A stretch of 64,000 bases of DNA from Streptomyces phaeochromogenes (GTDB lineage: Bacteria; Actinomycetota; Actinomycetes; Streptomycetales; Streptomycetaceae), in NCBI RefSeq assembly GCF_001418655.1, contig NZ_LIQZ01000003.1, positions 62,001 through 126,000 of the forward strand, given 5' to 3'. The position numbers and the translations under genes are program-made. Below the pieces are notes generated by a model. It saw nothing but the letters and a program-made list of their open reading frames with translations, was not told the origin of the DNA and did not search any database. Position 1 is the first letter of the stretch. Each line of letters begins with the position of its first letter. Positions 9,393-25,583 of the stretch are shown here, in pieces.

Positions 9393-10021
9393 GGCGTGTC
9401 TTTCCGTACGACGGTCAAGAAGGCGCGGGCTCGTTCGCGCAGCGCGGTCAGGCTGCCGCCGTCGGCGGCGTCTCCGATCAGCGGCGAGCCGACTCCGACC
9501 GCGGTCGCCCCGGCCGCCAGGTACGCCCGGGCGGCAGCCTCGTCGACACCGCCCACCGGAACGAACAACTCGTCCGGGAACGGGCCCCGCAGTGCCTTGA
9601 GGTAGGCGGGGCCGCCGGCCTCCGCGGCCGGGAAGATCTTCAGCGCGGCGGCACCGAGGGGGCGTGCGGCCACGATTTCGGTGGGGGTCATCACGCCGGC
9701 CAGGACGGGCAGGCCGAGTTCGTGTGCCGCGACGACGCCCTCACCGAGTGCGGGCGTGACGGCGAAGTTCGCGCCGGCCCGCTGGGCGGCGCGGGCGTCG
9801 TCGGCGGTCAGGACCGTGCCGGCGCCGAGGGGCCGGTCGGGGCCGAGCTCCTTGCGCGCCTGCTCGATGACGGACAGGGCGTCCGCGCCGGTCAGGGAGA
9901 CCTCGATCAGCTCGACGCCTTCCTCGGCGAGGGCCAGCACGGTGCGTACCGAGGCGTCGGGGTCGGTGCCGCGGATGATCGCGACCAGGCGGTGGGCGGC
10001 CAGGGCCGCTCGCAGATCCAT
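9389..10021 (-). CDS. KDPG/KDPGal-type aldolase (Eda/DgoA family)
   Basis: 210 residues, ATG at 10021. The class I aldolase fold of the Eda/DgoA family is visible: RLVAIIRGTDPDASV, the conserved Glu in EEGVELIEVSLTG, LGAGTVLTADDARAA, FAVTPALGEGVV, and the Schiff-base Lys at about residue 128 in ALKIFPAAEAGG, then VPVGGVDEAAARAYLAAGA with VGVGSPL. It splits a 2-keto-3-deoxy-6-phosphohexonate into pyruvate and glyceraldehyde-3-phosphate. Operon context with DgoD favours the galacto epimer, as in E. coli DgoA; sequence alone does not separate this from KDPG or 4-hydroxy-2-oxoglutarate activity. A 64-base gap without a gene separates it from the gene upstream. Confidence 0.9.
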   Translation of the reverse strand: MDLRAALAAHRLVAIIRGTDPDASVRTVLALAEEGVELIEVSLTGADALSVIEQARKELGPDRPLGAGTVLTADDARAAQRAGANFAVTPALGEGVVAAHELGLPVLAGVMTPTEIVAARPLGAAALKIFPAAEAGGPAYLKALRGPFPDELFVPVGGVDEAAARAYLAAGATAVGVGSPLIGDAADGGSLTALRERARAFLTVVRKDTP

Positions 10022-10085: not shown

Positions 10086-10904
10086 TCAGGTACAGCGGCA
10101 GTTCGCGGTCAGTGTCAGCCGCCACCGCACCTCGCCCGACTGGGGTACCCACGCAGCGTCGCCGGGGCCCGCCTCTGCGAGGTCGAAGACGCGGCCGAGC
10201 ATCGGTTCGACGCCCGTGCTGCGGTAGGGGTGCGCGGCGGGGAAGCCGCCCAGGTTGCGCCACAGGGCGATGGACACGGGCTGTCCGTCGGCTTCGAGGG
10301 CCAGCGACAGCCGGTCGGCCTGGTCGTGGACGCAGCAGCGGGCGGCGTCCACGACGGCTCCGACGGCGGTGCCGTCGTCCGGACCGAGCTGGTCGAGGCG
10401 CAGTCCGCAGGGTGCGGGCCAGTTCCCTTCGACCCAGGCGGCGCCTTGCGGCCATGTCCCCTCCAGCAGCGGTGCCGCCTCGGGGAAGAGGCGGGTGTTC
10501 GCTCCGTCGCGGATGTGCAGCGTCGCGCGGTCGGAGAGGTCGAGCAGGGCGTGCGCGGCCCACACGAAACGGAAGCCCGCGTCGGCCTTCAGCACGTAGT
10601 CCGCCTCGGCTCCCTCCGCGGTGCCACGGATCGTGCGGGTCAGGGTGAAGCGCTCGCAGTGGAGGACGTCGCTGTCACCGTCGCGTGTCCAGGGCCGTGA
10701 CCAGGCGTCACCGTGGTCGGGGGTGCCGCGGACCGTGGGGATGCACTCCTCCAGTCCGCCCGCGTCCACGAAGGTGTCACCCGGTGACACGTTCTGCCGC
10801 TCGGGTGCCTCGCGCCGCCAGAGCCATTCGCGCCCCGCGGTGCGCAGTGAGGTCCAACGGCCGCCGTGGGCAAGGTCGGTGACGATGTCCATCGGTGCGG
10901 TCAC
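10086..10904 (-). CDS. Aldose-epimerase/mutarotase-like protein
   Basis: About 272 residues. GTG at 10904 overlaps the DgoD stop (GTGA) and is chosen for coupling; ATG at 10892 is the alternative. The chain looks like a galactose mutarotase-like beta-sandwich: a Trp/Arg-rich start (GREWLWRREAPERQN), GGLEECIPTVRG with acidic residues where the family places its catalytic Glu, HCERFTLTRTI, then FRFVWAAHALLDLSDRATLHI and the end GRVFDLAEAGPGDAAWVPQSGEVRWRLTL. Such proteins interconvert sugar anomers or bind sugars. In this operon it could feed the beta-anomer of galactose to the dehydrogenase. Identity is by general appearance rather than a strict motif. Confidence 0.65.
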   Translation of the reverse strand: MTAPMDIVTDLAHGGRWTSLRTAGREWLWRREAPERQNVSPGDTFVDAGGLEECIPTVRGTPDHGDAWSRPWTRDGDSDVLHCERFTLTRTIRGTAEGAEADYVLKADAGFRFVWAAHALLDLSDRATLHIRDGANTRLFPEAAPLLEGTWPQGAAWVEGNWPAPCGLRLDQLGPDDGTAVGAVVDAARCCVHDQADRLSLALEADGQPVSIALWRNLGGFPAAHPYRSTGVEPMLGRVFDLAEAGPGDAAWVPQSGEVRWRLTLTANCRCT

Positions 10905-12046
10905 CACTCCGCGAAGGAACCGTCGGCGTGCCGCCACACAGGGTTGCGCCAGGCATGGCCGGTGCGGTCGGCGGCGCGTACGGCGTCCTCGTCGACAGTG
11001 ATACCGAGGCCGGGGGCGTCGCCGCGCGGGGCGTGACCGTCGACGAACCGGAACGGCTCCGGGTCGACCACGTAGGACAGCAGGTCGGCGTCCTTGTTGT
11101 AGTGGATGCCGCGGCTCTGCTCCTGGATCAGGAAGTTCGGGGTGGCGAAGGCTACTTGGAGACTGGCCGCGAGCGCGATGGGGCCGAGCGGGCAGTGCGG
11201 GGCGAGCTGGGCCCCGTAGGTCTCGGCGAGTGAGGCGATGCGGTGCACCTCCGAGATGCCGCCGGCGTGGGACAGGTCGGGCTGGGCGACCGCGATGCCC
11301 GCGGTGAGTACGGGCAGGAACTCGGCGCGCCCGTAGAGGCGTTCACCGGTGGCGAGCGGTACGGGACTGGCGGAGACCAGGCCGGCCAGCAGATGGCCCT
11401 GCTCGGGTACGACGGGTTCCTCGACGAACAGCGGGTGCAGCGGGGCGAGTTCGGCGAGGACGCGGCGGGCGCCCGCGGCGGTGAAGCGGCCGTGGAAGTC
11501 GACGGCGACGTCGCGGTCCGGGCCGAGTGCCTCGCGGGCGGCGGCAACTCGGCCTACGACCGCGGCGGTCTCGGCGGCGGTGGGGACCGGTGAGGTGGCT
11601 CCGGCGGCGTTCATCTTCACTGCGGTGAAGCCCGCTTCGACCTGGGCGGTTATCTGCTCGGTCAGTTCGGCGGGTTCGTCGCCGCCCACCCAGGCGTAGA
11701 CCCGGACGCGGTCGCGCACCGGGCCGCCGAGCAGGGCGTGCACGGGCGCGCCGTACGCCTTCCCGGCGATGTCCCACAGGGCCTGGTCGAGGCCGGCGAC
11801 GGCGCTGGAGAGGACCGGGCCGCCCCGGTAGAAGCCGCCCTTGGTGAGCACCTGCCAGTGGTCCTGGATGCGCAGCGGGTCCTGGCCGATGAGGTATTCG
11901 GCCAGGACGTCGATGGCGGCCCGGACGACTTCGGCGCGCCCTTCGACGACCGGTTCTCCCCAGCCGACCACGCCCTCGTCGGTCTCGACGCGGCAGAACA
12001 GCCAGCGGGGCGGGACCAGGAAGGTCTCGATGCGGGTGATCTTCAC
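10901..12046 (-). CDS. dgoD: D-galactonate dehydratase (enolase superfamily)
   Basis: 381 residues, GTG at 12046 overlapping the regulator stop. The protein follows E. coli DgoD along its length: FCRVETDEGVVGWGEPVVEG, YLIGQDPLRIQDHWQ, FYRGGPVLSSAVAGLDQAL, YAWVGGDEPAEL, DFHGRF (metal ligand Asp and catalytic His), HPLFVEEPV (Glu ligand), LATGERLYGRAEF, QPDLSHAGGISE, APHCPLGPIALAASL (catalytic His), IQEQSRGIHYNK and WRNPVWRHADGSFAEW at the C-terminus. Length is within one residue of the E. coli enzyme. It removes water from D-galactonate to give 2-keto-3-deoxygalactonate using Mg2+. Close homologues act on other sugar acids, but agreement in the IHYN and WRNP segments and the alpha-galactosidase context make galactonate the best call. 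Confidence 0.92.
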   Translation of the reverse strand: MKITRIETFLVPPRWLFCRVETDEGVVGWGEPVVEGRAEVVRAAIDVLAEYLIGQDPLRIQDHWQVLTKGGFYRGGPVLSSAVAGLDQALWDIAGKAYGAPVHALLGGPVRDRVRVYAWVGGDEPAELTEQITAQVEAGFTAVKMNAAGATSPVPTAAETAAVVGRVAAAREALGPDRDVAVDFHGRFTAAGARRVLAELAPLHPLFVEEPVVPEQGHLLAGLVSASPVPLATGERLYGRAEFLPVLTAGIAVAQPDLSHAGGISEVHRIASLAETYGAQLAPHCPLGPIALAASLQVAFATPNFLIQEQSRGIHYNKDADLLSYVVDPEPFRFVDGHAPRGDAPGLGITVDEDAVRAADRTGHAWRNPVWRHADGSFAEW

Positions 12047-12822
12047 TGGGAGCGGGAGCCTTCCACGGAATCGGAACCGGAACCGGAAACCGAGTCGGAG
12101 TCGGAGTCCGAATCGGAGTCGCCGACGCGGTCCAGGTCGCGGCCGGCCTGGTCGAGCAGGGCACGCATCGCGGCCTCTGCGGCCCCCGCGTCCCGGTCGC
12201 GTACGGCGTCCAGGACGGCGCGGTGGGCCGGGACCGGGTCCTCGCTGTGCGGGGAGCTGTGCACGATGCGGTCGCGGTGGGCCAGGCCGGACTCGATGAC
12301 CATCTCCATGCGTTCGAGGAGTTCGTTGTGGGTGGCGTTGAGCAGGGCACGGTGGAAGGCGAGGTCGGCCTCGACTGCGTGGGCGGCGCCGTTGTCCCGC
12401 TCCCCCATCGCCTCGATGGCGGCGTCCAGGGCGGCCAGGTCCTCGTCGGTGCGGCGCTCGGCGGCCAGACGCACGGCGGCGGGTTCGATGATGGCGCGTA
12501 CTTCGGCGAGATTGTGCAGCAGCGCCCGGTCGGACGCGTTGGTACGGCCGCCCTCGAACTGCCAGCGCAGCACGTCGGCGTCGAGCAGGTTCCACTCGGC
12601 GCGGGTACGCACGAAGGTGCCGCGCCGCTGGCGGGCGTCGACCATTCCCTTGGCGGCGAGCACCTTGAGCGACTCGCGCAGCGCGGTCAGGCTCACGTCC
12701 AGCTCGCTCTGCAGCGCCACCAGGTCCAGCGTGGCCCCCTCGGGGATCTCACCGCCCAGGATGCGGCGGGCGAGGAGTTCCACGGTCTGGCCGTGCACTC
12801 CGCGACGGGCATAGGGCGTCAT
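12043..12822 (-). CDS. GntR-family (FadR subfamily) transcriptional regulator, DgoR-like
   Basis: 259 residues from ATG 12822 (ribosome site AGAAAGG). The winged helix is HGQTVELLARRILGGEIPEG to VSLTALRESLKVLAAKGMVDARQRRGTFVR, and the FadR-type ligand domain follows with LRWQFEGG, LAEVRAIIEPAAVRLAAERR, ADLAFHRALLNATHNELL and HRAVLDAVRDRDAGAAE, where the His/Asp residues usually hold a metal. This group of regulators senses sugar acids such as galactonate. It is embedded in the operon directly before dgoD, so autoregulation is likely. The last 25 or so residues are a run of Asp-Ser dipeptides then Gly-Ser, coded by a six-base repeat at about 12050-12125; this tail is outside the fold and unusual. 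Confidence 0.9.
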   Translation of the reverse strand: MTPYARRGVHGQTVELLARRILGGEIPEGATLDLVALQSELDVSLTALRESLKVLAAKGMVDARQRRGTFVRTRAEWNLLDADVLRWQFEGGRTNASDRALLHNLAEVRAIIEPAAVRLAAERRTDEDLAALDAAIEAMGERDNGAAHAVEADLAFHRALLNATHNELLERMEMVIESGLAHRDRIVHSSPHSEDPVPAHRAVLDAVRDRDAGAAEAAMRALLDQAGRDLDRVGDSDSDSDSDSVSGSGSDSVEGSRSQ

Positions 12823-12856
12823 GTCGTACAGCCTTTCTGCTGGTGAGGGAGCGTGG

Positions 12857-13630
12857 TCATGCGGAGGCCTTGACGACGCTCCAGCCGCCGTCCACGACAA
12901 GACTCGTCCCGGTGATGTAGGAGGCTTCTTCGGCGCTGAGGAACGCGATGGCCGCGGCGACCTCCTCGGGGGAGCCGAAGCGGCGCACCGCGGTCTCGGC
13001 GACGCTGCGTTCCCGGTCCTCGGGCGGAAGCCTGTCCCAGGCGGCGGTCAGGATCGGACCCGGCACAACGGCGTTGACGCGCACTTCGGGACCGTATTCG
13101 ACGGCGAGTTGGGCGCACAGGGAGAGCAGGGCTCCCTTTGAGGCGGCGTAGGCGGGATGGCCTGGGATGCCCTTGTGGGCGTGGACGGACGAGGTCAGCA
13201 CGACCGCGCCCCGCCGGTCCCGCAGATCGGGCAGCGCCGCCCGGAAGCCGAGGAAGCTGCCGGTGAGGTTGACGTCGAGCTGCCGCTGCCACGAGGGAAG
13301 GGACATCTCGTGGGCGGGGGTGACGTCGACGGTGAAGGCGTTGCTGACGAGGACGTCCACGGGCCCGTAGCTGTGCGCCGCGGCGACCACCCGGGCCCAG
13401 TCCTCCTCGACGGCGACGTCGGCGGTCACGAACCGGGCCCGCCCGCCGTCCTTGCCGATCCGCTCCGCCACGGCCTCGCCCCGCTCCTCGGCCAGGTCGA
13501 CGAGCACGACGGCGGCTCCCTCCTCGGCGAGGCGTGCGGCCGTGGCGGCTCCGATGCCGGAGGCCGCTCCGGTGACCACGGCCGTGCGGCCGTCGAAGCG
13601 GGCGCCGTGCCGTCGTAGAGGCTGGTCCAT
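12857..13630 (-). CDS. Short-chain dehydrogenase, probable D-galactose 1-dehydrogenase
   Basis: 257 residues, ATG at 13630 with AAGGAG upstream. Classical SDR motifs are present: VVTGAASGIGAATAARL (cofactor loop, residues 18-34), VVLVDLAEE with an Asp that favours NAD+, the active site SSVHAHKGIPGHPAYAASKG with Ser147/148, Tyr161 and Lys165, and VRNVNAVVPGP-like VRVNAVVPGPIL. The usual NNAG segment reads SNAF, a mild deviation. In this operon the missing first step of galactose oxidation is a dehydrogenase giving galactonolactone, and this is the only candidate. The family is broad (also fucose or arabinose dehydrogenases), so the substrate is inferred from context. Confidence 0.82.
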   Translation of the reverse strand: MDQPLRRHGARFDGRTAVVTGAASGIGAATAARLAEEGAAVVLVDLAEERGEAVAERIGKDGGRARFVTADVAVEEDWARVVAAAHSYGPVDVLVSNAFTVDVTPAHEMSLPSWQRQLDVNLTGSFLGFRAALPDLRDRRGAVVLTSSVHAHKGIPGHPAYAASKGALLSLCAQLAVEYGPEVRVNAVVPGPILTAAWDRLPPEDRERSVAETAVRRFGSPEEVAAAIAFLSAEEASYITGTSLVVDGGWSVVKASA

Positions 13631-13701
13631 CGTGGGGTTCGACTCCTTCGCGGGCGTGGGACGGTTGATCGACCGCCTTAAGAACATATGCCGGACCGGG
13701 C

Positions 13702-15765
13702 TCACTGCCGTATCAGCACCACCAGTCCGGCGTCATGGCCGGCGCTCCACCGGAACGGCAGTCCGTAGTGGAGCAGATGGGATCCGCTGTACGTCGTCCC
13801 CGTCGCGGTGTCCCGGTAGTGCGCCGTCGGATCCATGCCCCGCAGCCGCAGCCGGTCGGGCCGCCCGGGCACGAGCGGGGCCCCGTCCAGGCGACCGGTG
13901 CCGAGGGCGGCGACGACCGTACGGTCGCCGAGGTCGTACTGCACGCCGCAGGTGCTGTCGTGCGGTGTGCCGAGAAGGCGGGCATCTCCCCGATGGACGA
14001 CGTCCCTCACCTTCTTGTACCGGGCGATCCACCCGGCGGCCTCGGCCCGCTCCTCCGGTGTCCAGGCTCGCAGGTCGGCGCCGATCCCGAGGACCCCACA
14101 GATGGCGTTGACGAAGCGGAAGGCGAGACTGCGGGGGCGCGGGTCGAAGATGCCGGGGGCGTCGGTGACCCAGGAGCTCATGACGTGCGGGGCGTGGGCG
14201 TGCAGGAACCCGTGTTGGATCGAGAGCCGGTCCAGGGGTGCTGTGTTGTCGCTGGGCCAGACGACGTCGGTGCGGGCGAGGGTCGCGTGCTCGATGCGGG
14301 CGCCGCCGCCCGCGCAGCCCTCGACGGTGACGTCGGGGTGGGTGGCGCGCAGGTGGTCCAGGACGCGCAGGTACCCGGCGACATGCTCCGCGTCCAGGTC
14401 GACAGGTCCGTCACCGGGGCGCCCGCGCTCGGTGGGCGGCCGGTTCATGTCCCACTTGACGTAGCTGATGTCGTAGGCGCCGAGCAGCCGGTCGAGCGTG
14501 CCGATCACGAAGTCCTGGACGTCCGTGCGGCCCAGGTCGAGCAGCAGCTGGTTGCGGACCAGGCGGGCGGGGCGGCCCTCGATCCGGTAGACCCATTCGG
14601 GGTGTTCGGCGTACAGGCGGCTGGCCGGGCTGACGGCCTCGGGCTCGACCCACAGGCCGAAGTCCAGCCCGAGCGCCCGGATGTCCTCGACGAACGGGCC
14701 GAAACCCTGCGGGAACGCCGCCGGGTCCGGGTACCAGTCGCCCAGTCCCCCGGTGTCGTCGCCACGGCCGGTGAACCATCCGTCGTCGACGACGAACAGC
14801 TCGGCGCCGATGTCGGCGGCCAGCTTGGCCAGTTCCAGTTGGCCGGCCGCGTCGACGTCGAAGCCGGTGGCCTCCCAGGAGTTGTAGAGCACCTTGCGGG
14901 GGCGGTGCAGTCGCTCGCCGGTCAGGTGGCGTTCGTAGCGGTGCCAGACGCGGGAGAGCCCGTCGAGGCCGTCGGGGCTGAAGGCGCAGGCGAGGCGGGG
15001 GGTGGAGAGGGTCTCGCCGGGGGTCAGGTGGACGACTCCCTCGTGCGGGACCCGCCCGGCGCGGACGCGCACACTGCCGCCAGGCTCTGCCTCGGCCGTC
15101 ATGTGCCAGTTGCCGGGCCATTCGAGGGCGATTCCATAAGCCGCCTCGGCCACTCCGTCCTGTACGGCGAGCCAGGGCGCGTACCCGTGTCCGGGTGCGC
15201 CCTGGAGGCTGCCCATGGTGAACGTGCCTCGTGTCAGGTCGAGTTGGGTGCGCTGGAACTCCTGGGACCACTGGCCGGTGAGGTAGGTCAGCCGTGCGGT
15301 ACCCGTGACGGGGATGTTCACGGCGGCCGAGTCGAGTCGCTCCAGGCGCAGTTCCTCCGTGGAGGTCAGTTCGGTCCAGCGGAGGATCACGTCCGTGCCC
15401 GGAACCGTCTCGTAGCAGAGGACCGTACGCAGTCCCAGGACGTCGTCGGTGAAGGTGAGCCGCAGGCTGCCTTCGCCCTCCTCCGCGCCGTCGAAGTCCC
15501 ACCACACGCCACGGTCCTGCCCCGGTCGTGCCGCGATCAGCTCGGATCCGGTGAACGGCCTTAGCCCGTACGGCAGATACTCGGCGGGCGCCGCGTCGGC
15601 GGGGGTGACGAAGTGGGTGCGACGGGACCAGTCGAGGGCGGAGGGGCCGTCTTCGACGCCGAGCGGGCCCCAGGCGTCGAGTTCGGCCCAGGGTCCGTCC
15701 GGGGACAGGCGGACGGTGTAGCTGCTGTGCTCGGTGCGCAGCGTCCAGCGCGGGTACGACGTCAC
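13702..15765 (-). CDS. Alpha-galactosidase, GH36 (cytoplasmic)
   Basis: 687 residues; the GTG at 15765 overlaps the permease stop (GTGA). No signal peptide, so it acts inside on imported oligosaccharides. After a beta-sandwich domain the (beta/alpha)8 barrel shows YNSWEATGFDVD, LFVVDDGWFTGRGDD, GDWYPDPAAFPQGF, FGLWVEPEAVSPAS, the nucleophile Asp439 in YVKWDMNRP, CAGGGARIEHATLARTDVVWPSDN with acid/base Asp506, and MSSWVTDAP. These are standard GH36 motifs. The enzyme releases galactose from raffinose- or melibiose-type alpha-galactosides. The ABC transporter genes immediately upstream fit import of these sugars; a 71-base gap containing an AT-rich patch (about 13680) separates it from the SDR gene and could hold an internal promoter. 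Confidence 0.95.
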   Translation of the reverse strand: MTSYPRWTLRTEHSSYTVRLSPDGPWAELDAWGPLGVEDGPSALDWSRRTHFVTPADAAPAEYLPYGLRPFTGSELIAARPGQDRGVWWDFDGAEEGEGSLRLTFTDDVLGLRTVLCYETVPGTDVILRWTELTSTEELRLERLDSAAVNIPVTGTARLTYLTGQWSQEFQRTQLDLTRGTFTMGSLQGAPGHGYAPWLAVQDGVAEAAYGIALEWPGNWHMTAEAEPGGSVRVRAGRVPHEGVVHLTPGETLSTPRLACAFSPDGLDGLSRVWHRYERHLTGERLHRPRKVLYNSWEATGFDVDAAGQLELAKLAADIGAELFVVDDGWFTGRGDDTGGLGDWYPDPAAFPQGFGPFVEDIRALGLDFGLWVEPEAVSPASRLYAEHPEWVYRIEGRPARLVRNQLLLDLGRTDVQDFVIGTLDRLLGAYDISYVKWDMNRPPTERGRPGDGPVDLDAEHVAGYLRVLDHLRATHPDVTVEGCAGGGARIEHATLARTDVVWPSDNTAPLDRLSIQHGFLHAHAPHVMSSWVTDAPGIFDPRPRSLAFRFVNAICGVLGIGADLRAWTPEERAEAAGWIARYKKVRDVVHRGDARLLGTPHDSTCGVQYDLGDRTVVAALGTGRLDGAPLVPGRPDRLRLRGMDPTAHYRDTATGTTYSGSHLLHYGLPFRWSAGHDAGLVVLIRQ

Positions 15766-16610
15766 TTCACCGCTCCCAGGTTGAGGCCGGCCACGAAGTG
15801 CCGCTGGAACCGCAGGAACACGATCACGGTGGGCGCGGCGGCGATGACCGAGCCGGCGGCGATCACGTTCCACATCGATACGTACTGTCCCTGAAGTCCT
15901 ATGAGAGCCGCGGTGATCGGCATCTTGGTGTCGCTGCGCAGCACGGTGATCGCCCAGAGCAGGTCGTTGAAGATCCAGGTGAAGGACAGGGCGCTGAGGG
16001 CGGCCAGGGCGGGGCGGGTGAGCGGGAGGATGATCCGCCAGAAGATCTGCCAGGGCCCTGCGCCGTCGACGACCGCCGCCTGCTGGATCTCCGCGGGTAT
16101 CCCGCGCATGAAGCCGTGCAGGACGAAGACGTAGAAGCCGACGCCGAAGCCGATCTGTACGCCGATCAGCGCGGGCAGCGTGTCGAAGACGCCCATCTGC
16201 TCGCTGAGCTTGGAGACCGGGATGAGCAGGATCTGCGGCGGAAGCAGGTTGCCACCGAGCATGAGCAGCAACAGGGAGCGCCGGAAGGGCATTTCGTAAC
16301 GGCTGAGCGAGAAGGCGGCCATGGCGGCGAGCGCGAGCGTCACCAGGACGCAGGGCACGGTGACCAGCAGGCTGTTGATGAGGGCGCGCTGCTGGCCACC
16401 GTCGTTCCAGGCCTGGCCGAAGTTGTCGAGGGTGAAGGACTGCGGCCAGCTGCCCAGGCCGTTCGCGGCGATGTCGTCGAAGGAGCGCAGGCTGGTCACG
16501 AGGACCAGGGCGATGGGCAGCAGCCACAGGAGGGCCAACGCCCCGGCGCCCAGGTGGAATCCGGCGGTCGCGGCCCGCTTGCGGCGCAGGGCCGTGGACG
16601 TGGCGGACAT
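15762..16610 (-). CDS. Sugar ABC transporter permease, MalG type
   Basis: 282 residues; ATG at 16610 overlaps the stop of the other permease by one base. Six membrane helices are visible (GALALLWLLPIALVLVTSL first). The cytoplasmic EAA loop reads EIQQAAVVDGAGPWQIFWRIILPLTRPAL, which docks to the ATPase. The C-terminus VFLRFQRHFVAGLNLGAVK is typical of CUT1 MalG-type permeases. It works with the permease at 16610-17545 and the lipoprotein at 17547-18836. No ATPase gene is present, so a shared MsiK-type ATPase encoded elsewhere is likely, as is usual in Streptomyces. Confidence 0.95.
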   Translation of the reverse strand: MSATSTALRRKRAATAGFHLGAGALALLWLLPIALVLVTSLRSFDDIAANGLGSWPQSFTLDNFGQAWNDGGQQRALINSLLVTVPCVLVTLALAAMAAFSLSRYEMPFRRSLLLLMLGGNLLPPQILLIPVSKLSEQMGVFDTLPALIGVQIGFGVGFYVFVLHGFMRGIPAEIQQAAVVDGAGPWQIFWRIILPLTRPALAALSALSFTWIFNDLLWAITVLRSDTKMPITAALIGLQGQYVSMWNVIAAGSVIAAAPTVIVFLRFQRHFVAGLNLGAVK

Positions 16611-17545
16611 CAGTCGGCCTCCCGGAACGCGCGGACGAGATAGGAGCAGATGACGCCGAAGGCCAGGACGAAGATGACGACGGCGAGTGCGGAGCCGTAG
16701 CCGAGTCGCAGGGACTGGAAGGCGGTTGAGTACATGTAGGTGCTCAGCAGCTCGGACGAGTGGTAAGGGCCGCCGCGGGTCAGCGACCACACGACGTCGA
16801 AGGAGCGCAGCGAGTCGATGACGATGACGGACAGGACGACCGCGTTGACGCTGCGCAGTTGGGGCAGGGTGACGTGGCGAAGGCGTTGCCAGGCGCTCGC
16901 GCCGTCGACCTTGGCGGCCTCGTACAGGGCCGGGTCGATGCCCTTGAGGCCGGCGAGGTAGAGGACCATGACGTAGCCGATCTGCCGCCAGAGCGCGGGC
17001 ACGATGACCGCGTACAGGGCGGTGTCCTGGTCGGCGAGCCAGGCGTGGCGCAGGTTGCCGAGGCCGACCGATTCCAGGAGTTGGTTCAGGACGCCGTCGG
17101 GCTGGTAGATCGCCTGCCAGACGAGGGCGGTGGCGACCAGGGAGAAGACGACGGGCAGGAACAGGGCCGCGCGGTAGAAGCCGACGCCGCGCCGCTCCTG
17201 CTGGAGCAGCAGCGCGGCGGCGAGGCCCAGCAGGGCGGACAGGCCGCCGAAGAGCACGAGCCACAGGACGGTGTGGCCGGCCGCGCTGCGGAAGACCTCG
17301 TCGTGGGCCATCTCCCGGAAGTTGTCCAGGCCGACGAACTGCGGTGGGGAGACTCCGTCCCAGCGGGTGAGGGCGAGGTAGAAGCCCTGCAGGGCGGGCC
17401 AGAACACCCATACCGCTTCGGCGAGGAGCGGGACGAGGACGAACGCGAGCACCAGCGGGGGTGTACGGCGGGGGCCCCCGGTCCGCCTGCCGCGGGGCGA
17501 CGGCGGGGCCGGGGACTTCCGTTCGGGCGCGGTCAGGACTGCCAT
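16610..17545 (-). CDS. Sugar ABC transporter permease, MalF/UgpA type
   Basis: 311 residues, ATG at 17545, one base after the stop of the binding-protein gene. Membrane helices include LVLAFVLVPLLAEAVWVFWPAL and TVLWLVLFGGLSALLGLAAALLL. WDGVSPPQFVGLDNF is the family segment after helix one and the EAA loop is DPALYEAAKVDGASAWQRLRHVTLPQL. It pairs with the MalG-type permease to import the sugar handed over by the lipoprotein. Confidence 0.95.
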   Translation of the reverse strand: MAVLTAPERKSPAPPSPRGRRTGGPRRTPPLVLAFVLVPLLAEAVWVFWPALQGFYLALTRWDGVSPPQFVGLDNFREMAHDEVFRSAAGHTVLWLVLFGGLSALLGLAAALLLQQERRGVGFYRAALFLPVVFSLVATALVWQAIYQPDGVLNQLLESVGLGNLRHAWLADQDTALYAVIVPALWRQIGYVMVLYLAGLKGIDPALYEAAKVDGASAWQRLRHVTLPQLRSVNAVVLSVIVIDSLRSFDVVWSLTRGGPYHSSELLSTYMYSTAFQSLRLGYGSALAVVIFVLAFGVICSYLVRAFREAD

Positions 17546-17546
17546 G

Positions 17547-18836
17547 TCAGGCGTTCCAGATCTTCTCGGCGTCGCGCTGCCAGCCGGTGAGAATGCTGCC
17601 GATCTCCTTCGGCTTGGCCAGGAACCTGGTCAGTGCGGTGTCCGCGGTGGGCTGGAGGGCGTCGCTGGAGTCCCGGTTGAAGAACTGGGTGATCTCGGCG
17701 GCCTCCTCGACGTGCGCGCGGCCCTTCTTCACCAGGGCGGTGCCGGCGTCCTTCGCCTTCGGGTTGCACGGCAGGACGGTGCCCGACGAGCCCTTGATGT
17801 AGATCTCCTGGGACTCGGCGGTGGCCAGGTAGCTCATCAGGTCGACGACCTGGTCGCGGCGGCCGGTGCGGGCGCTGGCGAAGTAGCCGTCGACCGGGGC
17901 CTCTTCGGCGAGCGGGATCTTCGGGTCGATGACGGGGAAGCGGAAGAAGTCGATGTCGTCGAGCGCGTCCTTGGGGGCGGCGTCGGCGAAGAAGGTGCCG
18001 ATGAGCATCATGCCGGTGCGGCCGTTGAGCAGGGCGGTCGTGGCGTCCTGGAAGGGGACGGCGTCGCCGTTCGGGTCGAAGTACGGCAGCACCTCCTGCC
18101 AGCGGTCGAAGACCTTGCGCACCTCGGGGTCGTCGAACCGGTGCTTCCCGGCGAGGAGTTCGCGGTGGTACTCGGCGCCGTTGATCCGGATGTCGAGGTA
18201 GTCGAACCAGGCCGAGGCCACCCAGGCGGTGTTGCCGCCCGCGCCGAGGCCTATCGGGTCGACGCCCTTGCTCTTGAGCTTGTCGCACAGGTCGAGGAAG
18301 TCGTCCCAGCTCTTGGGCTCGCTCACGCCCCACTTCGCGAAGTTGGACTTCCGGTAGAACATGCCCCACCAGTAGTAGGTGGCGGGGACGAAGACCTTCT
18401 TGCCCGAGGTCGCGGTGCACAGGGAGTTCAGTGCCTTGGAGTAGCTCTTGAGGTCGGGCGAGGAGCTCCAGACCTCACCGAGGTCCAGCAGCAGGTCCTT
18501 CTTCGCGTAGGCGTCCGCCACCGAGCCGGGGTACCAGGTGTACACGTCCGGCGGGTTGGCGGAGGTCAGGTAGGTCGGCAGCTGGGTGCGGAAGGTCTCC
18601 GCGGCGACCGTGTTGAGGCTGGCGCGCGCCGACCCCTTCTTGCCGTACGCGGCGACGAGGTCCTGCATCGCGGCCTTGGCCTGCGGTGCGGACACGTTGG
18701 ACTGGAGGGTCACCGCGCCCTTGGAGGAGCTCTTGCCGGAGGAGGTGGAGGTGACACAGCCGCTGAGCAGCGCCGCCGTCCCGGCGGCACCGAGTCCTGC
18801 GAGGAACCGGCGTCGGCCGGTCTGATGGTTCGTCAT
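17547..18836 (-). CDS. Extracellular sugar-binding lipoprotein of the ABC importer
   Basis: 429 residues from ATG 18836, with AGGGAG upstream. The N-terminus has twin Arg (GRRRFLAGLG) and a lipobox LLSGC, so the mature protein is lipid-anchored outside the membrane and may travel by the TAT route. The mature part follows the family 1 binding-protein plan: NPPDVYTWYPGSVADAYAKKDLLLDLGEVW, YYWWGMFYRKSNFAKWG, PKSWDDFLDLCDKLKSKG, ALLNGRTGMMLIGTFF. Aromatic residues in YYWWGMFY and TWYPG are the kind that stack on sugars. It is the first gene of the galactoside operon. A long perfect hairpin lies between its promoter and its ribosome site (18854-18903). Confidence 0.95.
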   Translation of the reverse strand: MTNHQTGRRRFLAGLGAAGTAALLSGCVTSTSSGKSSSKGAVTLQSNVSAPQAKAAMQDLVAAYGKKGSARASLNTVAAETFRTQLPTYLTSANPPDVYTWYPGSVADAYAKKDLLLDLGEVWSSSPDLKSYSKALNSLCTATSGKKVFVPATYYWWGMFYRKSNFAKWGVSEPKSWDDFLDLCDKLKSKGVDPIGLGAGGNTAWVASAWFDYLDIRINGAEYHRELLAGKHRFDDPEVRKVFDRWQEVLPYFDPNGDAVPFQDATTALLNGRTGMMLIGTFFADAAPKDALDDIDFFRFPVIDPKIPLAEEAPVDGYFASARTGRRDQVVDLMSYLATAESQEIYIKGSSGTVLPCNPKAKDAGTALVKKGRAHVEEAAEITQFFNRDSSDALQPTADTALTRFLAKPKEIGSILTGWQRDAEKIWNA

Positions 18837-18853
18837 GGATGGCTCCCTGTGGA

Positions 18854-18903
18854 TCCGCGCGAGCGGGGCGGCCCTCCTGACGGCCGGGCCCCGCTCGCGC
18901 GGA
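18854..18903 (-). promoter_or_regulatory. Long hairpin in the leader of the transport operon
   Basis: TCCGCGCGAGCGGGGC (18854-18869, plus strand) pairs perfectly with GCCCCGCTCGCGCGGA (18888-18903), with a further GGCC/GGCC inner stem. It lies downstream of the proposed promoter and ends a few bases before the ribosome site of the lipoprotein gene. It may end readthrough from the GH27 gene, act as an attenuator, or protect the 5' end of the operon mRNA. No T-run follows. Confidence 0.7.
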
Positions 18904-18906
18904 TAC

Positions 18907-18954
18907 AGATTCGCGTGGCACTCACGCCACGTCAAGAATAATTACTAATTTATT
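18907..18954 (-). promoter_or_regulatory. Promoter and operators of the alpha-galactoside transport operon
   Basis: Reading the minus strand: an 18-base AT-rich imperfect palindrome (18954-18937, plus-strand AATAATTACTAATTTATT), one base, then -35 TTGACG (18935-18930), 17 bases, and -10 GAATCT (18912-18907). The spacer region holds a second palindrome with CGTGGC and GCCACG arms (18914-18931). The AT-rich element contains the TAA stop of the GH27 gene and matches 15 of 18 bases of the element at 21233-21250, which has the same one-base offset to its -35. Confidence 0.65.
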
Positions 18955-21121
18955 TGAACTGGGTCCGGTGCACGTAGCCGTCGACTCCGCGGAACACCGC
19001 GTCGACCGTGCCGTCCGGCCCTGCCACCGCTCCGAGCGCGCCCTCGAAGGCCGCGCTGGGGAACTCCTGCCGCTTGGTCCAGCCCTGCCAGCCGCCGTTC
19101 TCGTACCGCTGCTGCCAGAGCGTGTAGTCGGAGGCCCGCGCGTACAGCACCACGGCGTCTCCCACGGTGACGAGCGTCGGGCTGCCGCTGACGGTCCCGC
19201 CGAGCGATGTCCACGGCGACCACTCCCCCGACGCCGACGCCTCCCTGGACCGCGTCCACACGTCGTCCGCCGCGGAGCGCACGGCCACGTGGACCCGCCC
19301 CTGGGAGTCGACGGCGGCGGACGGCCGCCCGTACACGGGCCGATCACCGGGCATGCCGAGCGAGGACCAGCCGGACGACGGGCCGCGCTGCACGACCTGT
19401 CCGTCGGAGCCGGTGGCGAACAGCGTCCAGTGGCCGGGGTCGGTGAACGCCACCGACGGCGCGTCGCTCACCCGGCCGCCCAGGTTCTGCCAGGTGCCCC
19501 AGCGGCCGTCGGCGAGGACCCGCCGGTACACCCGGGAGTCGGTGCCGCGAACGAAGACGTCGATCCGGCCGCCGGCCGAGGCGTACGCGGCGGGCTGGCC
19601 GAGGATCCTGCCCTTTGTCGGGCCGCCGAGGTCCCGCGGCCGGGCCCTGCCGTTGCCGTCGGCGGTGGCCGTGTGCTGGACGAGGGAGCCGTTCGGTCCG
19701 CGCAGGAACGTCGTGAGCGTGTCGCCGTCGCGCACCACTGCCGGGCTCGCCGTGGCCTTCTGGCGCAGGCTGGTGCCGGGCAGGGCGTCGGCGCCGGTCA
19801 GCTTCAGGAACGCGGTGCCGTGCGCGGGGACCTCGACCGTGTACGACTCGGCGTGGGAACCCCGGTCCGCCCTGGCCCGCAGGTCACGCACCTTCACCCC
19901 GCCGCCGAGCCCGACGTCGGAGAACTTGACCGTGCGCTCGACCGCCTTGTCGGAGCGGTTGAGCAGCACGACCGCGCGCCTGCCGTCACCCGCGAGGACC
20001 TTGCTGTAGACGTCGCCCACGGAGTCACTGGCCACCCGTACGCCCTGGATGGCGAGGGGGTCCTGGTCGACGGCGATGATCTCCGGGTTGCGCAGCGTCT
20101 CGATCATCGAGTCCGACAGGGTGCGCGGATCGGATCCGATGACCAGCGGCGAACCCATCTCGGCCCACATCACGAACTGCGTGGTGGACTCCTCCTGCGT
20201 CAGCTCCAGGGATCCGTCGCCCATGCGCCGCATGGGGATGAGGTAGTCCGGGTCGTTGTAGTGGCCCGGTCCCTGCGCCTCGGGGTGCCAGGCGTTCGCG
20301 TCCATGTTGCGCAGCACGTTGGGCCACTGTCCGGGGCTCGGGGTGCCCCAGGCGATGTCCGTGCCGGTGCGCCAGGAGTCGGCGATCGTCGGGGCGTAGA
20401 CGTACGAGTTGTGCGCGTCCTGCTCGGGCGTGTGCGGCAGGCCCCAGTCGTCGGTGAGCGGGTTGCACAGGTTGAGCAGCATCTTGCGGCCGGACTTGGC
20501 CACCGCGTCGCTGAACTCCTTGAACGCCGGGCCCGGGTCGAGCTTGGCGCCGATGCCGCACAGGAAGTCGACCTTGACCGCGTCGATCTTCCAGCCGGCG
20601 AACTGCCGGGCGTCCTCCTCGTAGTGGCCCCTGCTGCCGAGGCCGCAGGTCTTGCCGCCGTCGTAGGCGCCGGCGTCGGTGTAGATGCCCGCCTTCAGGC
20701 CGCGTTTGTGCAGGTAGGAGACCAACGCCGGGATACCGGAGGGAAAGCGGTCCGGATGGGCGGCCAACCGCCCCTTGGCGTCACGTGGGTTGTCGGCCTG
20801 CCAGCCTCCGTCCAGCCACACGATGTCGTAGCCACTGTCGCGCAGACCGCTGCTGACCAGCTTGTCCGCGACGGAGCGCACCGCCTGTTCGGTGGGTGCG
20901 CCGAGCCCGTAGTAGGTGTTCCAGCCCATGTAGGGCGTGGGCGCGAGACCACTGTCGTAGTACTCGGGCGCGCCCTGGTCGGCGGCGCCCCGATCGGTGC
21001 CGGTCTGCGCCGTGGCCACCGGGGCGGCGGTCACCGCCAGCACGGTTGCGATCGCGACCGCGGTGGCACGGCGCGTCAGTCTGGACGCCGCGGGTGTGCG
21101 GACCTGCGGGTGTGAAGTCAC
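18950..21121 (-). CDS. Secreted alpha-galactosidase, GH27, with C-terminal propeller-like domain
   Basis: 723 residues from GTG 21121 (GGGAGAGG upstream). A signal peptide with a basic start (RLTRRATAVAIATVLAVTAAPVATA) ends near AQT. The GH27 barrel begins TPYMGWNTYYGLG and shows DIVWLDGGWQ, GIYTDAGAYDG with TCGLGSRGHYEED, the nucleophile Asp185 in VKVDFLCG, and acid/base Asp290 in HYNDPDYL, then TTQFVMWAEMGSPLVIGSD. A C-terminal beta-sandwich follows (to about residue 440), and the last 260 residues are repeats with Trp and Gly (WGTWQNLGGRVSDAPS, WSPWTSLGGTVSGSPT), like the PLL/tectonin-type propellers that bind glycans. It would trim galactose from galactomannan or galactosides outside the cell. 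Family relatives include alpha-N-acetylgalactosaminidases. Confidence 0.93.
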   Translation of the reverse strand: MTSHPQVRTPAASRLTRRATAVAIATVLAVTAAPVATAQTGTDRGAADQGAPEYYDSGLAPTPYMGWNTYYGLGAPTEQAVRSVADKLVSSGLRDSGYDIVWLDGGWQADNPRDAKGRLAAHPDRFPSGIPALVSYLHKRGLKAGIYTDAGAYDGGKTCGLGSRGHYEEDARQFAGWKIDAVKVDFLCGIGAKLDPGPAFKEFSDAVAKSGRKMLLNLCNPLTDDWGLPHTPEQDAHNSYVYAPTIADSWRTGTDIAWGTPSPGQWPNVLRNMDANAWHPEAQGPGHYNDPDYLIPMRRMGDGSLELTQEESTTQFVMWAEMGSPLVIGSDPRTLSDSMIETLRNPEIIAVDQDPLAIQGVRVASDSVGDVYSKVLAGDGRRAVVLLNRSDKAVERTVKFSDVGLGGGVKVRDLRARADRGSHAESYTVEVPAHGTAFLKLTGADALPGTSLRQKATASPAVVRDGDTLTTFLRGPNGSLVQHTATADGNGRARPRDLGGPTKGRILGQPAAYASAGGRIDVFVRGTDSRVYRRVLADGRWGTWQNLGGRVSDAPSVAFTDPGHWTLFATGSDGQVVQRGPSSGWSSLGMPGDRPVYGRPSAAVDSQGRVHVAVRSAADDVWTRSREASASGEWSPWTSLGGTVSGSPTLVTVGDAVVLYARASDYTLWQQRYENGGWQGWTKRQEFPSAAFEGALGAVAGPDGTVDAVFRGVDGYVHRTQFK

Positions 21122-21202
21122 TTGCCTCTCCCGAGGGTTGGGAAGCACGAGGACGTGACGCGGGCCGCGCTGCGACAGGGGGCCACCGACGTCACGGCGA
21201 AG

Positions 21203-21250
21203 ACTGTGGCGTGCGGCCGAAACCCTGTCAATATTAATTCCTAATTTAAT
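21203..21250 (-). promoter_or_regulatory. Promoter and AT-rich operator of the GH27 gene
   Basis: On the minus strand an 18-base imperfect palindrome (21250-21233, plus-strand ATTAATTCCTAATTTAAT) is followed by one base and a perfect -35 TTGACA (21231-21226); a weak -10 CACAGT (21208-21203) lies 17 bases on. The same arrangement occurs at 18907-18954. The whole 21122-21503 interval has no gene; it holds this promoter and, on the other strand, the GH2 promoter. Confidence 0.6.
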
Positions 21251-21392: not shown

Positions 21393-21435
21393 TTGACAGA
21401 AACCCTCCCGCGTCACAGCCTTTGGCAACGTTGTC
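21393..21435 (+). promoter_or_regulatory. Promoter with LacI-type operator for the GH2 gene
   Basis: TTGACA (21393-21398), 17 bases, CAGCCT (21416-21421), then the palindrome GGCAACGTTGTC (21424-21435) at the expected start site, a position where a bound repressor would block transcription. The centre CAACGTTG is typical of LacI/GalR operators. Related sites lie at 35526-35537 and 35855-35866. Confidence 0.65.
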
Positions 21436-21503
21436 ATCCGTTGGCATCACGTGCCGTGTCCTACCCGGCCCGCACCGCTGTCTTTTGATGGGACATCACG
21501 CTC

Positions 21504-24500
21504 ATGACAGATCAGTCGAGCTCGCCACGCCTGTCGCGACGCTCCCTCGTCACCACGGGTTCCACCCTGCTGGCGGGGTTCGGACTTGGTTCCCTGTTGC
21601 CCGCGTCGACCGCCGCCGCGGCGGGCATCGACGCGTCGGCCGCGCCCTCCTCGCCTCGTGAGCTGGCGCTCTACCGCCCCGTCACGGTCTCTTCGACGGC
21701 CTACGCGCCCACTCCGGGCTCGTTCGTGGTCGACCGGCTCGCCTCACCGGGAGTTCGGGGCAGCGGCTGGCGGGCCGCGGCGGGCGACCCGCAGTGGATC
21801 TCGATCGATCTGCAGGCCGCCTGTGACGTCACGTGGATCCGCCTCACGTTCGAAGGCGACGCGAGCGACCCGGTGTTCACTCCCCCGACCACCGGAAATC
21901 CGGCCAGCGGCACCACGGGCAAAGAGATCCAGTCGAGCTACTCGGTCGAGTACGTGGTCGAGACATCCACCGACCGCGAGTCCTGGACCAGCGTCTACCG
22001 CACGACGGCCGGCACCGGCGGAGTGGTGAACATCCAGCTGCCGCGCCCCGCCACCGCTCGCTGGGTGCGGATGACCTCGCGCAAGCGCTCCAACCCCAAT
22101 CCCCTCGGCCTGAACGGCTTCGAGGTCTACGGCAGCCCCAAGGGGCACCGGCCGTCGGCCACCGGCTGGACGGACTGGGGCAAGCACTCCGGGCCCGCGC
22201 CCAAGCTCGTTGTGGCCGACGACGGCACGGTGCCGGTGGAGTCCGGCTGGCGGCTGACCCTCGACGACTGGGCCGACGCCGACGGCAAGGAGCTGTCGAA
22301 GACGACTGTCGACACCAGCGGTTGGCTGCCTGCCACCGTTCCCGGCACGGTCCTGGCCTCGCTGGTGGACCAGGGCAAGCTGCCCGACCCCGTCGCCGGA
22401 CTGAACAACCTGCATGTTCCCGAGGCCCTGTCGCGGCACGCGTGGTGGTACAAGCGGGACTTCGAGCTGCCGCGCGGTCTGCGCACCGGAGCCGGGCGGC
22501 GGATCTGGCTGGAGTTCGACGGCATCAACCACAAGGCCGACATCTGGCTCAACGGCAAGCAGGTGGGCGACCTGACGTTTCCCTTCGCCCGCTCGTCCCA
22601 CGACGTGACCAAGCTGCTCTCGACGGGCGAGGCGAACGCGCTCGCGGTGAAGATCACGCCGATGCCGGTGCCCGGCAGCCCCGGCGACAAGGGCCCCGCC
22701 GGCGAGGCCTGGGTGGACGCGGGCGCCAACCAGATGAACCTCAACTCGCCCACCTACCTGGCCTCTTCGGGCTGGGACTGGATGCCCGCGGTACGTGACC
22801 GGGCCGCCGGTATCTGGAACCACGTCCGGCTGAGATCCACCGGCCATGTCGTGATCGGCGATCCTCGTGTCGACACCCTGCTGCCGAAGCTGCCCGACGT
22901 GTCGGTCGCCGAGCTGACCGTCGTCGTCCCGGTCCGCAACGCCGACACCGCCGACCACAAGGTGACGGTCTCCGCGGCCTTCAACGGCGTACGGGTGTCC
23001 AAGGTCGTCACCGTGCCCGCGGGCGAGAACCTCGACGTCACGTTCACCCCCGACGCCTTCGGGCAACTCCGGCTGCGCGACCCGAAACTGTGGTGGCCCA
23101 ACGGGCTCGGTGACCCCGCCCTGCATGACCTCACCCTGGTCGCGTCGCTCGACGGCGCCGAGAGCGACCGCCGCACCACCCGGTTCGGCATCCGCCAGTT
23201 CGGCTACGAGTACGAGGTGCCACTGCCGTTCACCGCCTCCGAGGACGCCTACACCCAGTCCGTCCCCTTCGACCGGCAGCAGGCCCGTTACGTACGCATC
23301 AAGTGCCTGACCAGGGCCTCCGGTTGGGGCAACTCACTGTGGACGCTGGCCGTGTCCGACAGCGCACGCCCTTCCGTCGACCTCGCCCTGCACGCATCCG
23401 CCGACGCGTCGAGCAAGGACGGGGACGACCGCGGTCCGGCCAATGCGACGGACGGCGATCCCGCGACCCGCTGGTCCTCGTCCTACGAGGACGACCAGTG
23501 GATCCGGGTCGACCTCGGGTCCTCGCAGTCGTTCGACCGGGTCGACCTGACCTGGGAGCAGGCGTACGCGAAGACCTACCTGGTCCAGGTCTCCTCGAAC
23601 GACGCCGACTGGACCGATGTGGCGTCGGTGGACAACAGCGCGGTGCCGCTGCCCTTCAACAACGGCAACGCCAGCCTCCAGGTCGAGGACTTCGCTGCAC
23701 GCACCGCCCGCTACGTCCGTATCGCCTGCGGGGTACGCAACACCAGCTGGGGCAACTCCCTTTGGTCCCTCGGCGTCATCGACAGCACCAAACCCGGAAC
23801 CGACCTCGCCCTGCGCCAGAAGGCGACCGCCTCGACCGAGGAGTCCGACCACCCGGCCGCGCACGCCACCGATGGCGATACGGGAACCCGCTGGTCGTCC
23901 CAGTACGAGGACCAGCAGTGGATCCAGGTCGACCTGGGCGCCGCGAAGAGGTTCGACCGGGTGGCGATCGTGTGGGAGCCGGCCTACCCGAAGACCTATG
24001 TGATCCAGGTGTCCGACGACGGGGACACGTGGACCGACGTGAAGTCCGTGTCCAACACCCCCGACCCGCTCAAGATCAGCGTGAACGGCGTGCGGGTTCT
24101 TGCCCGCGGCGGCAACTGGGGCTGGGACGAACTGCTGCGCCGGATGCCGCCGGAGCGGATGGACGCGGCCGTACGGATGCACCGCGACATGAACTTCACC
24201 ATGATCCGCAACTGGGTCGGCACCTGCGACCGGGAGGAGTTCTTCGCCGCCTGCGACGAGCACGGGATCCTGGTCTGGAACGACTTCCCCAACGCGTGGG
24301 CCATGGACCCGCCGGACCACGACGCCTTCAACTCGATCGCGCGGGACACCGTCCTGCGGTACCGCATCCACCCCAGCGTGGTGATCTGGTGCGGAGCAAA
24401 CGAGGGCAACCCGCCCGCCGCCATCGACAAGGCCATGCGCCAGGCCGTCGAACAGCAGGCCCCCGGCATCCTCTACCAGAACAACTCGGCCGGCGGCATC

Positions 24501-25583
24501 ATCACCGGCGGCGGTCCCTACGGCTGGGTCGAGCCGGAGAAGTACTTCGATCCGTCCACGTACGGCAGCAAGGACTTCGGCTTCCACACCGAGATCGGTA
24601 TGCCGGTCGTCTCCACCGCGGCCAGCATCCGGAACATGACGGGCGAGGAGCCCGAGTGGCCGATCCGCGGCGCCTGGTACTACCACGACTGGAGCGAGCG
24701 CGGGAATCAGGCACCGCACACGTACAAGGCAGCCGTCGAGGCCCGCCTCGGGGAGACCGAGGACCTGGACGACTTCGCCCGCAAGGCCCAGTTCGTCAAC
24801 TACGAGAACACGCGCGCCATGTTCGAGGCGTGGAACGCGAACCTGTGGGACAACGCCAGCGGACTGATGCTGTGGATGTCCCACCCCGCGTGGCACAGCA
24901 CGGTCTGGCAGACCTACGACTACGACTTCGACGTCAACGGTACGTACTACGGGGCCCGCACTGCCTGCGAGCCGCTGCACGTCCAGGCCGACCCGAAGGG
25001 ACAGGTCCTGGCCGTCAACCACACGCGCAAGGACCTCAAGAACGCCACCGTCTCGGCGCGGTTGTTCGATCTGTCGGGCCGGCAGCTCGGCAAGACCAGG
25101 AGCGCACGGCTGGACGTGGCACCGGCCTCCACCGCGAAGGCGTTCACCAGCGCCTGGACCGACGATCTGCCCGACCTGCACCTGCTGCGCCTGACTCTGG
25201 AGAGCAGCGACGGCCGCGTCCTGTCGAACAACACCTACTGGCGCCATCGCACCGCGGCAGCCATGCGTGCGTTGACCAAGGCGCCGCAGACCAGGGTGTC
25301 CGGAACGGTGACGCGCCTGTCCCGATCCGGGGCCCGTCACGAACTGACCGCCACCATCCGCAACCACGGTCGGTCCGTCGCCGCCATGGTCCGGCTGTCC
25401 CTGCTCAACGACAAGACCGGCCATCGCGTGCTGCCGACGCTCTACAGCGACAACTACCTGTGGCTGCTGCCCGGCGAGTCACAGACCGTCACCTTGTCCT
25501 GGCCCGCCCGCGCTCTGCCCTCGCACCGGCCGCTCCTGAAGGTGGAGGCGTACAACAGCCGCTCCGCGACAGCGCGCCCGTAG
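21504..25583 (+). CDS. Secreted GH2 glycosidase (CsxA/beta-mannosidase-like) with discoidin domains
   Basis: 1359 residues, ATG at 21504 with a poor ribosome site. A TAT signal (SRRSLVTTGSTLLAGFGLGS) ends near AAAAG. Residues about 50-210 are a discoidin/CBM32 domain. The GH2 sugar-binding sandwich (about 245-440; WWYKRDFELP, WLEFDGINHKADIWLNG) and Ig-like domain (LWWPNGLGDPALHDL, FGIRQFGYEYE) follow. Residues about 565-855 are an insertion made of discoidin sequence in half-full-half order, then the barrel resumes at ISVNGVRVLARGGNWGWDEL. Acid/base Glu967 sits in WCGANEGNPP and nucleophile Glu1030 in GFHTEIGMP. The motifs resemble exo-beta-D-glucosaminidase and mannosylglycoprotein mannosidase; the substrate is not certain. 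It acts outside the cell and appears to be controlled by a LacI-type repressor. Confidence 0.9.
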   Translation: MTDQSSSPRLSRRSLVTTGSTLLAGFGLGSLLPASTAAAAGIDASAAPSSPRELALYRPVTVSSTAYAPTPGSFVVDRLASPGVRGSGWRAAAGDPQWISIDLQAACDVTWIRLTFEGDASDPVFTPPTTGNPASGTTGKEIQSSYSVEYVVETSTDRESWTSVYRTTAGTGGVVNIQLPRPATARWVRMTSRKRSNPNPLGLNGFEVYGSPKGHRPSATGWTDWGKHSGPAPKLVVADDGTVPVESGWRLTLDDWADADGKELSKTTVDTSGWLPATVPGTVLASLVDQGKLPDPVAGLNNLHVPEALSRHAWWYKRDFELPRGLRTGAGRRIWLEFDGINHKADIWLNGKQVGDLTFPFARSSHDVTKLLSTGEANALAVKITPMPVPGSPGDKGPAGEAWVDAGANQMNLNSPTYLASSGWDWMPAVRDRAAGIWNHVRLRSTGHVVIGDPRVDTLLPKLPDVSVAELTVVVPVRNADTADHKVTVSAAFNGVRVSKVVTVPAGENLDVTFTPDAFGQLRLRDPKLWWPNGLGDPALHDLTLVASLDGAESDRRTTRFGIRQFGYEYEVPLPFTASEDAYTQSVPFDRQQARYVRIKCLTRASGWGNSLWTLAVSDSARPSVDLALHASADASSKDGDDRGPANATDGDPATRWSSSYEDDQWIRVDLGSSQSFDRVDLTWEQAYAKTYLVQVSSNDADWTDVASVDNSAVPLPFNNGNASLQVEDFAARTARYVRIACGVRNTSWGNSLWSLGVIDSTKPGTDLALRQKATASTEESDHPAAHATDGDTGTRWSSQYEDQQWIQVDLGAAKRFDRVAIVWEPAYPKTYVIQVSDDGDTWTDVKSVSNTPDPLKISVNGVRVLARGGNWGWDELLRRMPPERMDAAVRMHRDMNFTMIRNWVGTCDREEFFAACDEHGILVWNDFPNAWAMDPPDHDAFNSIARDTVLRYRIHPSVVIWCGANEGNPPAAIDKAMRQAVEQQAPGILYQNNSAGGIITGGGPYGWVEPEKYFDPSTYGSKDFGFHTEIGMPVVSTAASIRNMTGEEPEWPIRGAWYYHDWSERGNQAPHTYKAAVEARLGETEDLDDFARKAQFVNYENTRAMFEAWNANLWDNASGLMLWMSHPAWHSTVWQTYDYDFDVNGTYYGARTACEPLHVQADPKGQVLAVNHTRKDLKNATVSARLFDLSGRQLGKTRSARLDVAPASTAKAFTSAWTDDLPDLHLLRLTLESSDGRVLSNNTYWRHRTAAAMRALTKAPQTRVSGTVTRLSRSGARHELTATIRNHGRSVAAMVRLSLLNDKTGHRVLPTLYSDNYLWLLPGESQTVTLSWPARALPSHRPLLKVEAYNSRSATARP

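Follow-up and report, generated by a model that had tools for sequence, protein, structure and literature searches.

A 64,000-nt stretch of the Streptomyces phaeochromogenes genome, referred to here as the window, contains two near-identical, AT-rich elements, O1 and O2, associated with an operon for galactoside utilization. We consider it probable (roughly 70%) that these elements are operators of a galactose regulon, each coupled to a sigma-70-type core promoter and repressed by the DgoR-like GntR/FCD protein that the operon itself encodes.

The operon lies on the minus strand, and its first gene is within an ORF for a GH27 α-galactosidase (18950–21148; Pfam Melibiase_2) whose start codon is probably internal to the ORF, near 21121. 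It is followed by the ORF of a solute-binding protein (SBP; 17547–18935; Pfam SBP_bac_1; start probably at 18836), two ABC permease genes (16610–17545 and 15762–16610), a GH36 α-galactosidase gene (13702–15750, within an ORF of 13702–16527; Pfam Melibiase), an SDR dehydrogenase gene (12857–13705) whose product is presumed, from an inferred substrate, to be a galactose dehydrogenase, the gene of the DgoR-like GntR/FCD regulator (12043–12900), our candidate for the protein that binds O1 and O2, and a galactonate dehydratase gene (10901–12060, within an ORF of 10901–12595). The distal part comprises a gene that matched neither Pfam nor NCBIfam (10086–10937), and members of the KDPG/KDPGal aldolase (9389–10021), SMP-30-type lactonase (8409–9392) and PfkB sugar kinase (7423–8412) families. 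Because the dehydratase scored 574.7 bits against an NCBIfam equivalog cut-off of 311, we identify the pathway as De Ley-Doudoroff galactose breakdown, the enzyme set of which is present, with the substrates of the PfkB and KDPG aldolase family members inferred. The gene at 10086–10937 accompanies the pathway in many relatives.

Both elements are on the minus strand. The putative operator O1 (ATAAATTAGTAATTATT) occupies 18937–18953 and the putative operator O2 (TTAAATTAGGAATTAAT) 21233–21249. As a preliminary description of this DNA had claimed, the 18-mers at 18937–18954 and 21233–21250 agree at 15 of 18 bases, in each copy one base separates the element from a minus-strand TTGAC, and the GH27 stop codon (18950–18952) sits within O1. 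The palindrome reported there was borne out as a dyad, although its length is 17 bp around a single-base centre (18945 and 21241, respectively) and not 18 bp. Pairing between the arms is imperfect, with 6/8 and 5/8 complementary pairs in the two window dyads, and among 60 unique window-type sites from the named set of loci described below, the symmetry was matched by 69 of 1000 column shuffles, so that taken alone it is not significant. It is more evident among the diverged, CATTAAATATGAATTAATG-type sites. Aligned across sites, the operator core reads AATT-AGT-AATT, without GT/AC.

Each element would be joined to a core promoter of the form TTGACR, 17 bp, nAnnnT. For the SBP promoter the −35 box is TTGACG (18930–18935) and the −10-like box GAATCT (18907–18912); for the GH27 promoter they are TTGACA (21226–21231) and CACAGT (21203–21208), with a 17-bp spacer in both cases and all boxes on the minus strand. 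From this geometry, transcription is predicted to start near 18900 and 21196, which would place the dyad centres near −45. The same arrangement recurs in the named set, in which nAnnnT was found 17 or 18 bp past TTGAC at 118 of 118 sites (97 at 17 bp and the other 21 at 18 bp), these sites being reducible to 60 unique 19-mers and hence not independent. The corresponding counts at 14, 15 and 16 bp were 0, 2 and 1, and 30 and 5 sites also fitted 19 and 20 bp. At three loci (those of G011 and G193, and L130) the SBP start codon occupies the position expected for TTGAC beside O1, and the internal promoter therefore seems to have been lost there.

Several other features were observed around these promoters. 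An inverted repeat, GTGGC-N6-GCCAC (18915–18930, minus strand), lies between the −35 and −10 boxes of the SBP promoter, is kept in various relatives and is a possible second control site. The segment from the SBP −10 box to the start codon (18850–18905, minus strand) forms a very strong predicted hairpin (−52.7 kcal/mol for 80 nt); a hairpin there is strong, with varying sequence, in several relatives and not in others. An alignment of 20 sequences gave four consensus pairs and no two-sided changes, and we therefore do not claim a conserved RNA hairpin in the SBP leader. Upstream of GH27, a divergent GH2-type gene (21504–25583, plus strand) is preceded by a separate TTGACA at 21393 and, at 21423–21436, by a palindrome, TGGCAACGTTGTCA, resembling LacI-family operators. 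Given this resemblance, the GH2-type gene may answer to another regulator.

The preliminary description had also held that an AT-rich sequence conserved at exact spacing would be strong evidence for function, and conservation was indeed found. When AAATTAGKAATTAWTMTTGAC (the element with its TTGAC) was searched for with up to three mismatches in a sample of the genus, 71 matches were obtained in 39 of 199 genomes, compared with one match in 1 of 199 for the reversed control. A frequent layout is that of the window, with two copies ~2.26 kb apart on either side of GH27. Sixty-six of the matches fell within 40 fetched loci; the other five comprise the pair in the window, two in G150 and one in G153 (C97). 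For 61 of the 66, the next homologous gene was GH27 (29), SBP (28) or SDR (4). Two others face sugar-ABC binding proteins (L037 and L042, the Pfam scan of the target having been made for L042), and the matches in G049 and G080 adjoin a dehydratase fragment and no evident target gene, respectively. The match in L071 has a GH42 gene on one side and the SDR-GntR genes on the other. A three-mismatch match, CTATTAGTAATAAATCTTGAC, lies ahead of a YceI-family gene (L035:19100, minus strand, in G196) and may possibly belong to a different regulator; G153 has a similar match on another contig. Six of the 199 genomes contain a second GH27 gene, 84–100% alike, and in every one of them this gene has the site too. 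It is remote from the operon in G131, G153 and G196 and adjacent to it in G027, G132 and G189. It was unusable as a regulator-free negative control, since all six genomes carry both the regulator and the site.

A named set of 80 loci, from Streptomyces, Actinacidiphila, Streptacidiphilus, Wenjunlia and one unclassified bin, was scanned with a motif matrix trained on 43 unique sites of the genus sample, with some genomes being shared between the two sets. A motif match was present in 77 of the 80 loci, and in 73 a match abutted TTGAC. Two loci without a match (L159 and L166) end at contig ends, and in L142, where no element was found, no GH27, SBP or permease match was found either. The next homologous gene after the 125 matches was SBP in 55 cases, GH27 in 53, SDR in 10 and GntR in 7, a distribution biased to the regulator locus because the loci were fetched around the regulator gene. 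TTGAC directly followed the element in 118 of the 125.

The position of the elements upstream of −35 bears on their mode of action, and the preliminary description had preferred an activator or a UP-like element. Under the former, a GntR/FCD dimer at about −45 would recruit RNA polymerase to promoters with poor −10 boxes; the one-base spacing to TTGAC, the non-consensus −10 sequences and the centre near −45 are all consistent with this. The arrangement found beside diverged regulators argues otherwise. Eighteen loci whose regulators are mostly 55–62% alike (69–70% in L202 and L203) were scanned, and 14 of them contain an element like CATTAATTATGAATACATC or CATTAAATATGAATTAATG. With up to four mismatches, 25 diverged sites were obtained, of which 8 adjoin TTGAC, 12 fall between TTG (−35) and TTTAAT (−10) boxes separated by 17 bp, and 5 do neither. 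TTTAAT belongs to the palindrome arm itself, and the independent observation at these 12 sites is the TTG exactly 17 bp away. They precede SDR or dehydratase genes (11) or an MFS transporter gene (1), and two GH35 genes are found downstream of TTGAC-type sites. A protein bound between −35 and −10 should block transcription, and DgoR of Escherichia coli, the nearest solved relative of the window regulator (7c7e, 107 bits), is a repressor. Extended by homology from the diverged class to O1 and O2, these observations point to repression and make activation unlikely; together with the concentration of the element at galactoside genes, they led us to abandon the earlier preference. In four loci of the diverged class (L113:10650–11927, L116, L117 and L118), a 'cellulase-like sugar-binding' gene stands behind an operator-TTGAC unit, divergent from the diverged GntR gene; it matches PF12876 in L113 and has similar N-termini in the other three.

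The preliminary description had named the operon's GntR protein as a candidate binder, a proposal that gained support. The window regulator matches PF00392 (46 bits) and PF07729 (86.1 bits), both over the cut-off, and this domain test is decisive in placing it in the FadR (FCD) subfamily of the GntR family. Thirty-three of the 199 genomes encode an orthologue at least 79% alike; the site is present in 32 of these, as against 7 of the 166 others (Fisher test, without correction for phylogeny); much of this co-occurrence is expected from joint inheritance, as regulator and sites are mostly at one locus. In five of the seven (G002, G092, G105, G161 and G180), a GntR/FCD relative 54–70% alike is present at the fetched site locus, and where regulators are 70–74% alike (G037, G047, G156 and G184) the sites differ by more than three mismatches. 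A regulator encoded elsewhere might instead bind the elements, with the operon GntR controlling some other target. G049 and G080, which have a site and no close regulator, fit such an arrangement, as does the reverse case of G007 and G008, in which the regulator is present and no site was detected; the 5′ portion of the locus is missing from G007, where SBP starts at residue 257, and G008 has the SDR-GntR genes. We nevertheless regard a foreign regulator as quite improbable in view of the 32/33 co-occurrence, the seven matches of 125 that lie directly ahead of GntR itself, and the alteration of the operator beside diverged regulators.

The recognition helix of the regulator is also unusual. 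At the position equivalent to FadR Arg45, set from an alignment with a FadR segment, the window protein and all listed relatives down to 64% have Leu. The diverged class mostly has Leu as well, with Gln in L042 and Lys in L037 and L118. Of 84 GntR HTHs found in the window's own genome, 50 were examined; 39 of these have Arg at this position and two, including the window protein, have Leu. We also looked for a residue-level correspondence of HTH position 28 with the centre of the operator, which was inconsistent across classes and was dropped.

Two further explanations were weighed. An AT tract directly upstream of −35 could be a UP element that strengthens the promoter through the α subunit of RNA polymerase only, and both the composition and the position of O1 and O2 would suit it. 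A generic UP element is not specific to a class of genes, however, and a scan of the 10.9-Mb genome for the element with TTGAC one base downstream, as proposed in the preliminary description, returned O1 and O2 only: AAATTAGKAATTAWTMTTGAC had exactly two matches with up to three mismatches (mean of 0.00 in 100 shuffles of the window), and the dyad alone (ATWAATTASTAATTAWT, same tolerance) matched the same two places, each on both strands, with one match for its reversed control. Since, in addition, 61 of the 66 fetched matches are at GH27, SBP or SDR, the specificity of sequence extends to the central G, and the diverged class is often downstream of −35, we consider a UP element very improbable. 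The named-set controls were initially less clear, with 89 matches for the reversed motif against 125 for the true one, because an AT palindrome read in reverse still coincides with the true sites. When the controls were rerun after masking these sites, with the threshold unchanged, one match was obtained with the reversed motif and two in all with 20 column-permuted motifs (the true motif's zero after masking is circular and was not used). That the elements reflect chance or inherited similarity and have no regulatory function is suggested by the imperfect dyad and nothing further, and is practically dismissed by their uniqueness in the genome, 39/199 genomes versus 1/199, the −10 spacing and the permuted and reversed controls.

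Repression by the operon's GntR/FCD protein can be set beside known systems. According to PMC12288454, DgoR represses at inverted repeats overlapping its own promoter, one of which, IR1, contains TTGT-AGT-ACAA. Like DgoR, the window regulator belongs to the FadR subfamily of the GntR family, is encoded alongside a galactonate dehydratase and a member of the KDPG aldolase family, and would act at an odd-length dyad at a promoter. The DgoR metal triad (D146/H150/H195) is retained in the alignment, and among the 11 pocket residues given in PMC7674646, 5 are retained and 6 changed; with only 5 of 11 kept, the effector may not be galactonate. The window system differs from DgoR in the flanks of its operator core, which lack the GT/AC of IR1, in the Leu that replaces the recognition-helix Arg, and in the addition of α-galactosidases and an ABC importer to the operon. 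More generally, the FadR-subfamily operator consensus is TKGT-N3-ACMA, with FadR Arg45 contacting G, as stated in PMC4494728. O1 and O2 share the A/T-rich palindrome and 3-nt centre and, if they are the regulator's sites, depart from the consensus in having no GT/AC boxes. BioR and NanR are listed as exceptions in that paper, and the window regulator would therefore not be alone in having an off-consensus operator. The BioR operator, TTATMKATAA in that source, is comparable by description in being AT-rich and off the GT/AC consensus, and is of even length, different in sequence and associated with biotin genes. Among the open-licence papers listed in our literature searches were some on DgoR and on GntR motifs, and none that gave an earlier account of the regulon.

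For repression by the GntR/FCD protein we propose the following sequence of events. O2 would drive the operon starting at GH27, and O1 would be an internal promoter for the transport and catabolic genes from SBP onward. A GntR/FCD dimer on the 17-bp dyad, one base from −35, would exclude sigma from the −35 box until it was freed from the operator by galactonate in the cell or by some other acid of the pathway. Galactosides would in this way switch on the genes for their own import and catabolism, and expression of the regulator would be subject to negative feedback. Of this scheme, computation has established the sites, the geometry of the promoters, their targets, the conservation and the tie to the regulator, and binding, repression, the effector and the two transcription starts are predictions.

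Beyond the window, we suggest tentatively, at a little under even odds, that a branch of DgoR-like repressors widespread among Streptomyces and their relatives recognizes operators whose arms are entirely A/T, with no GT/AC core, by means of an Arg-to-Leu change in the recognition helix, that operator and −35 box form a repressible cassette for galactoside genes, and that the operator changes together with the regulator. Galactoside use in many Streptomyces would then have a named regulator, operator and regulon. The regulator-operator pairs would be material for studying how specificity for DNA shifts in GntR proteins that lack the usual Arg-G contact, and high-GC hosts would gain a compact promoter that responds to sugar.
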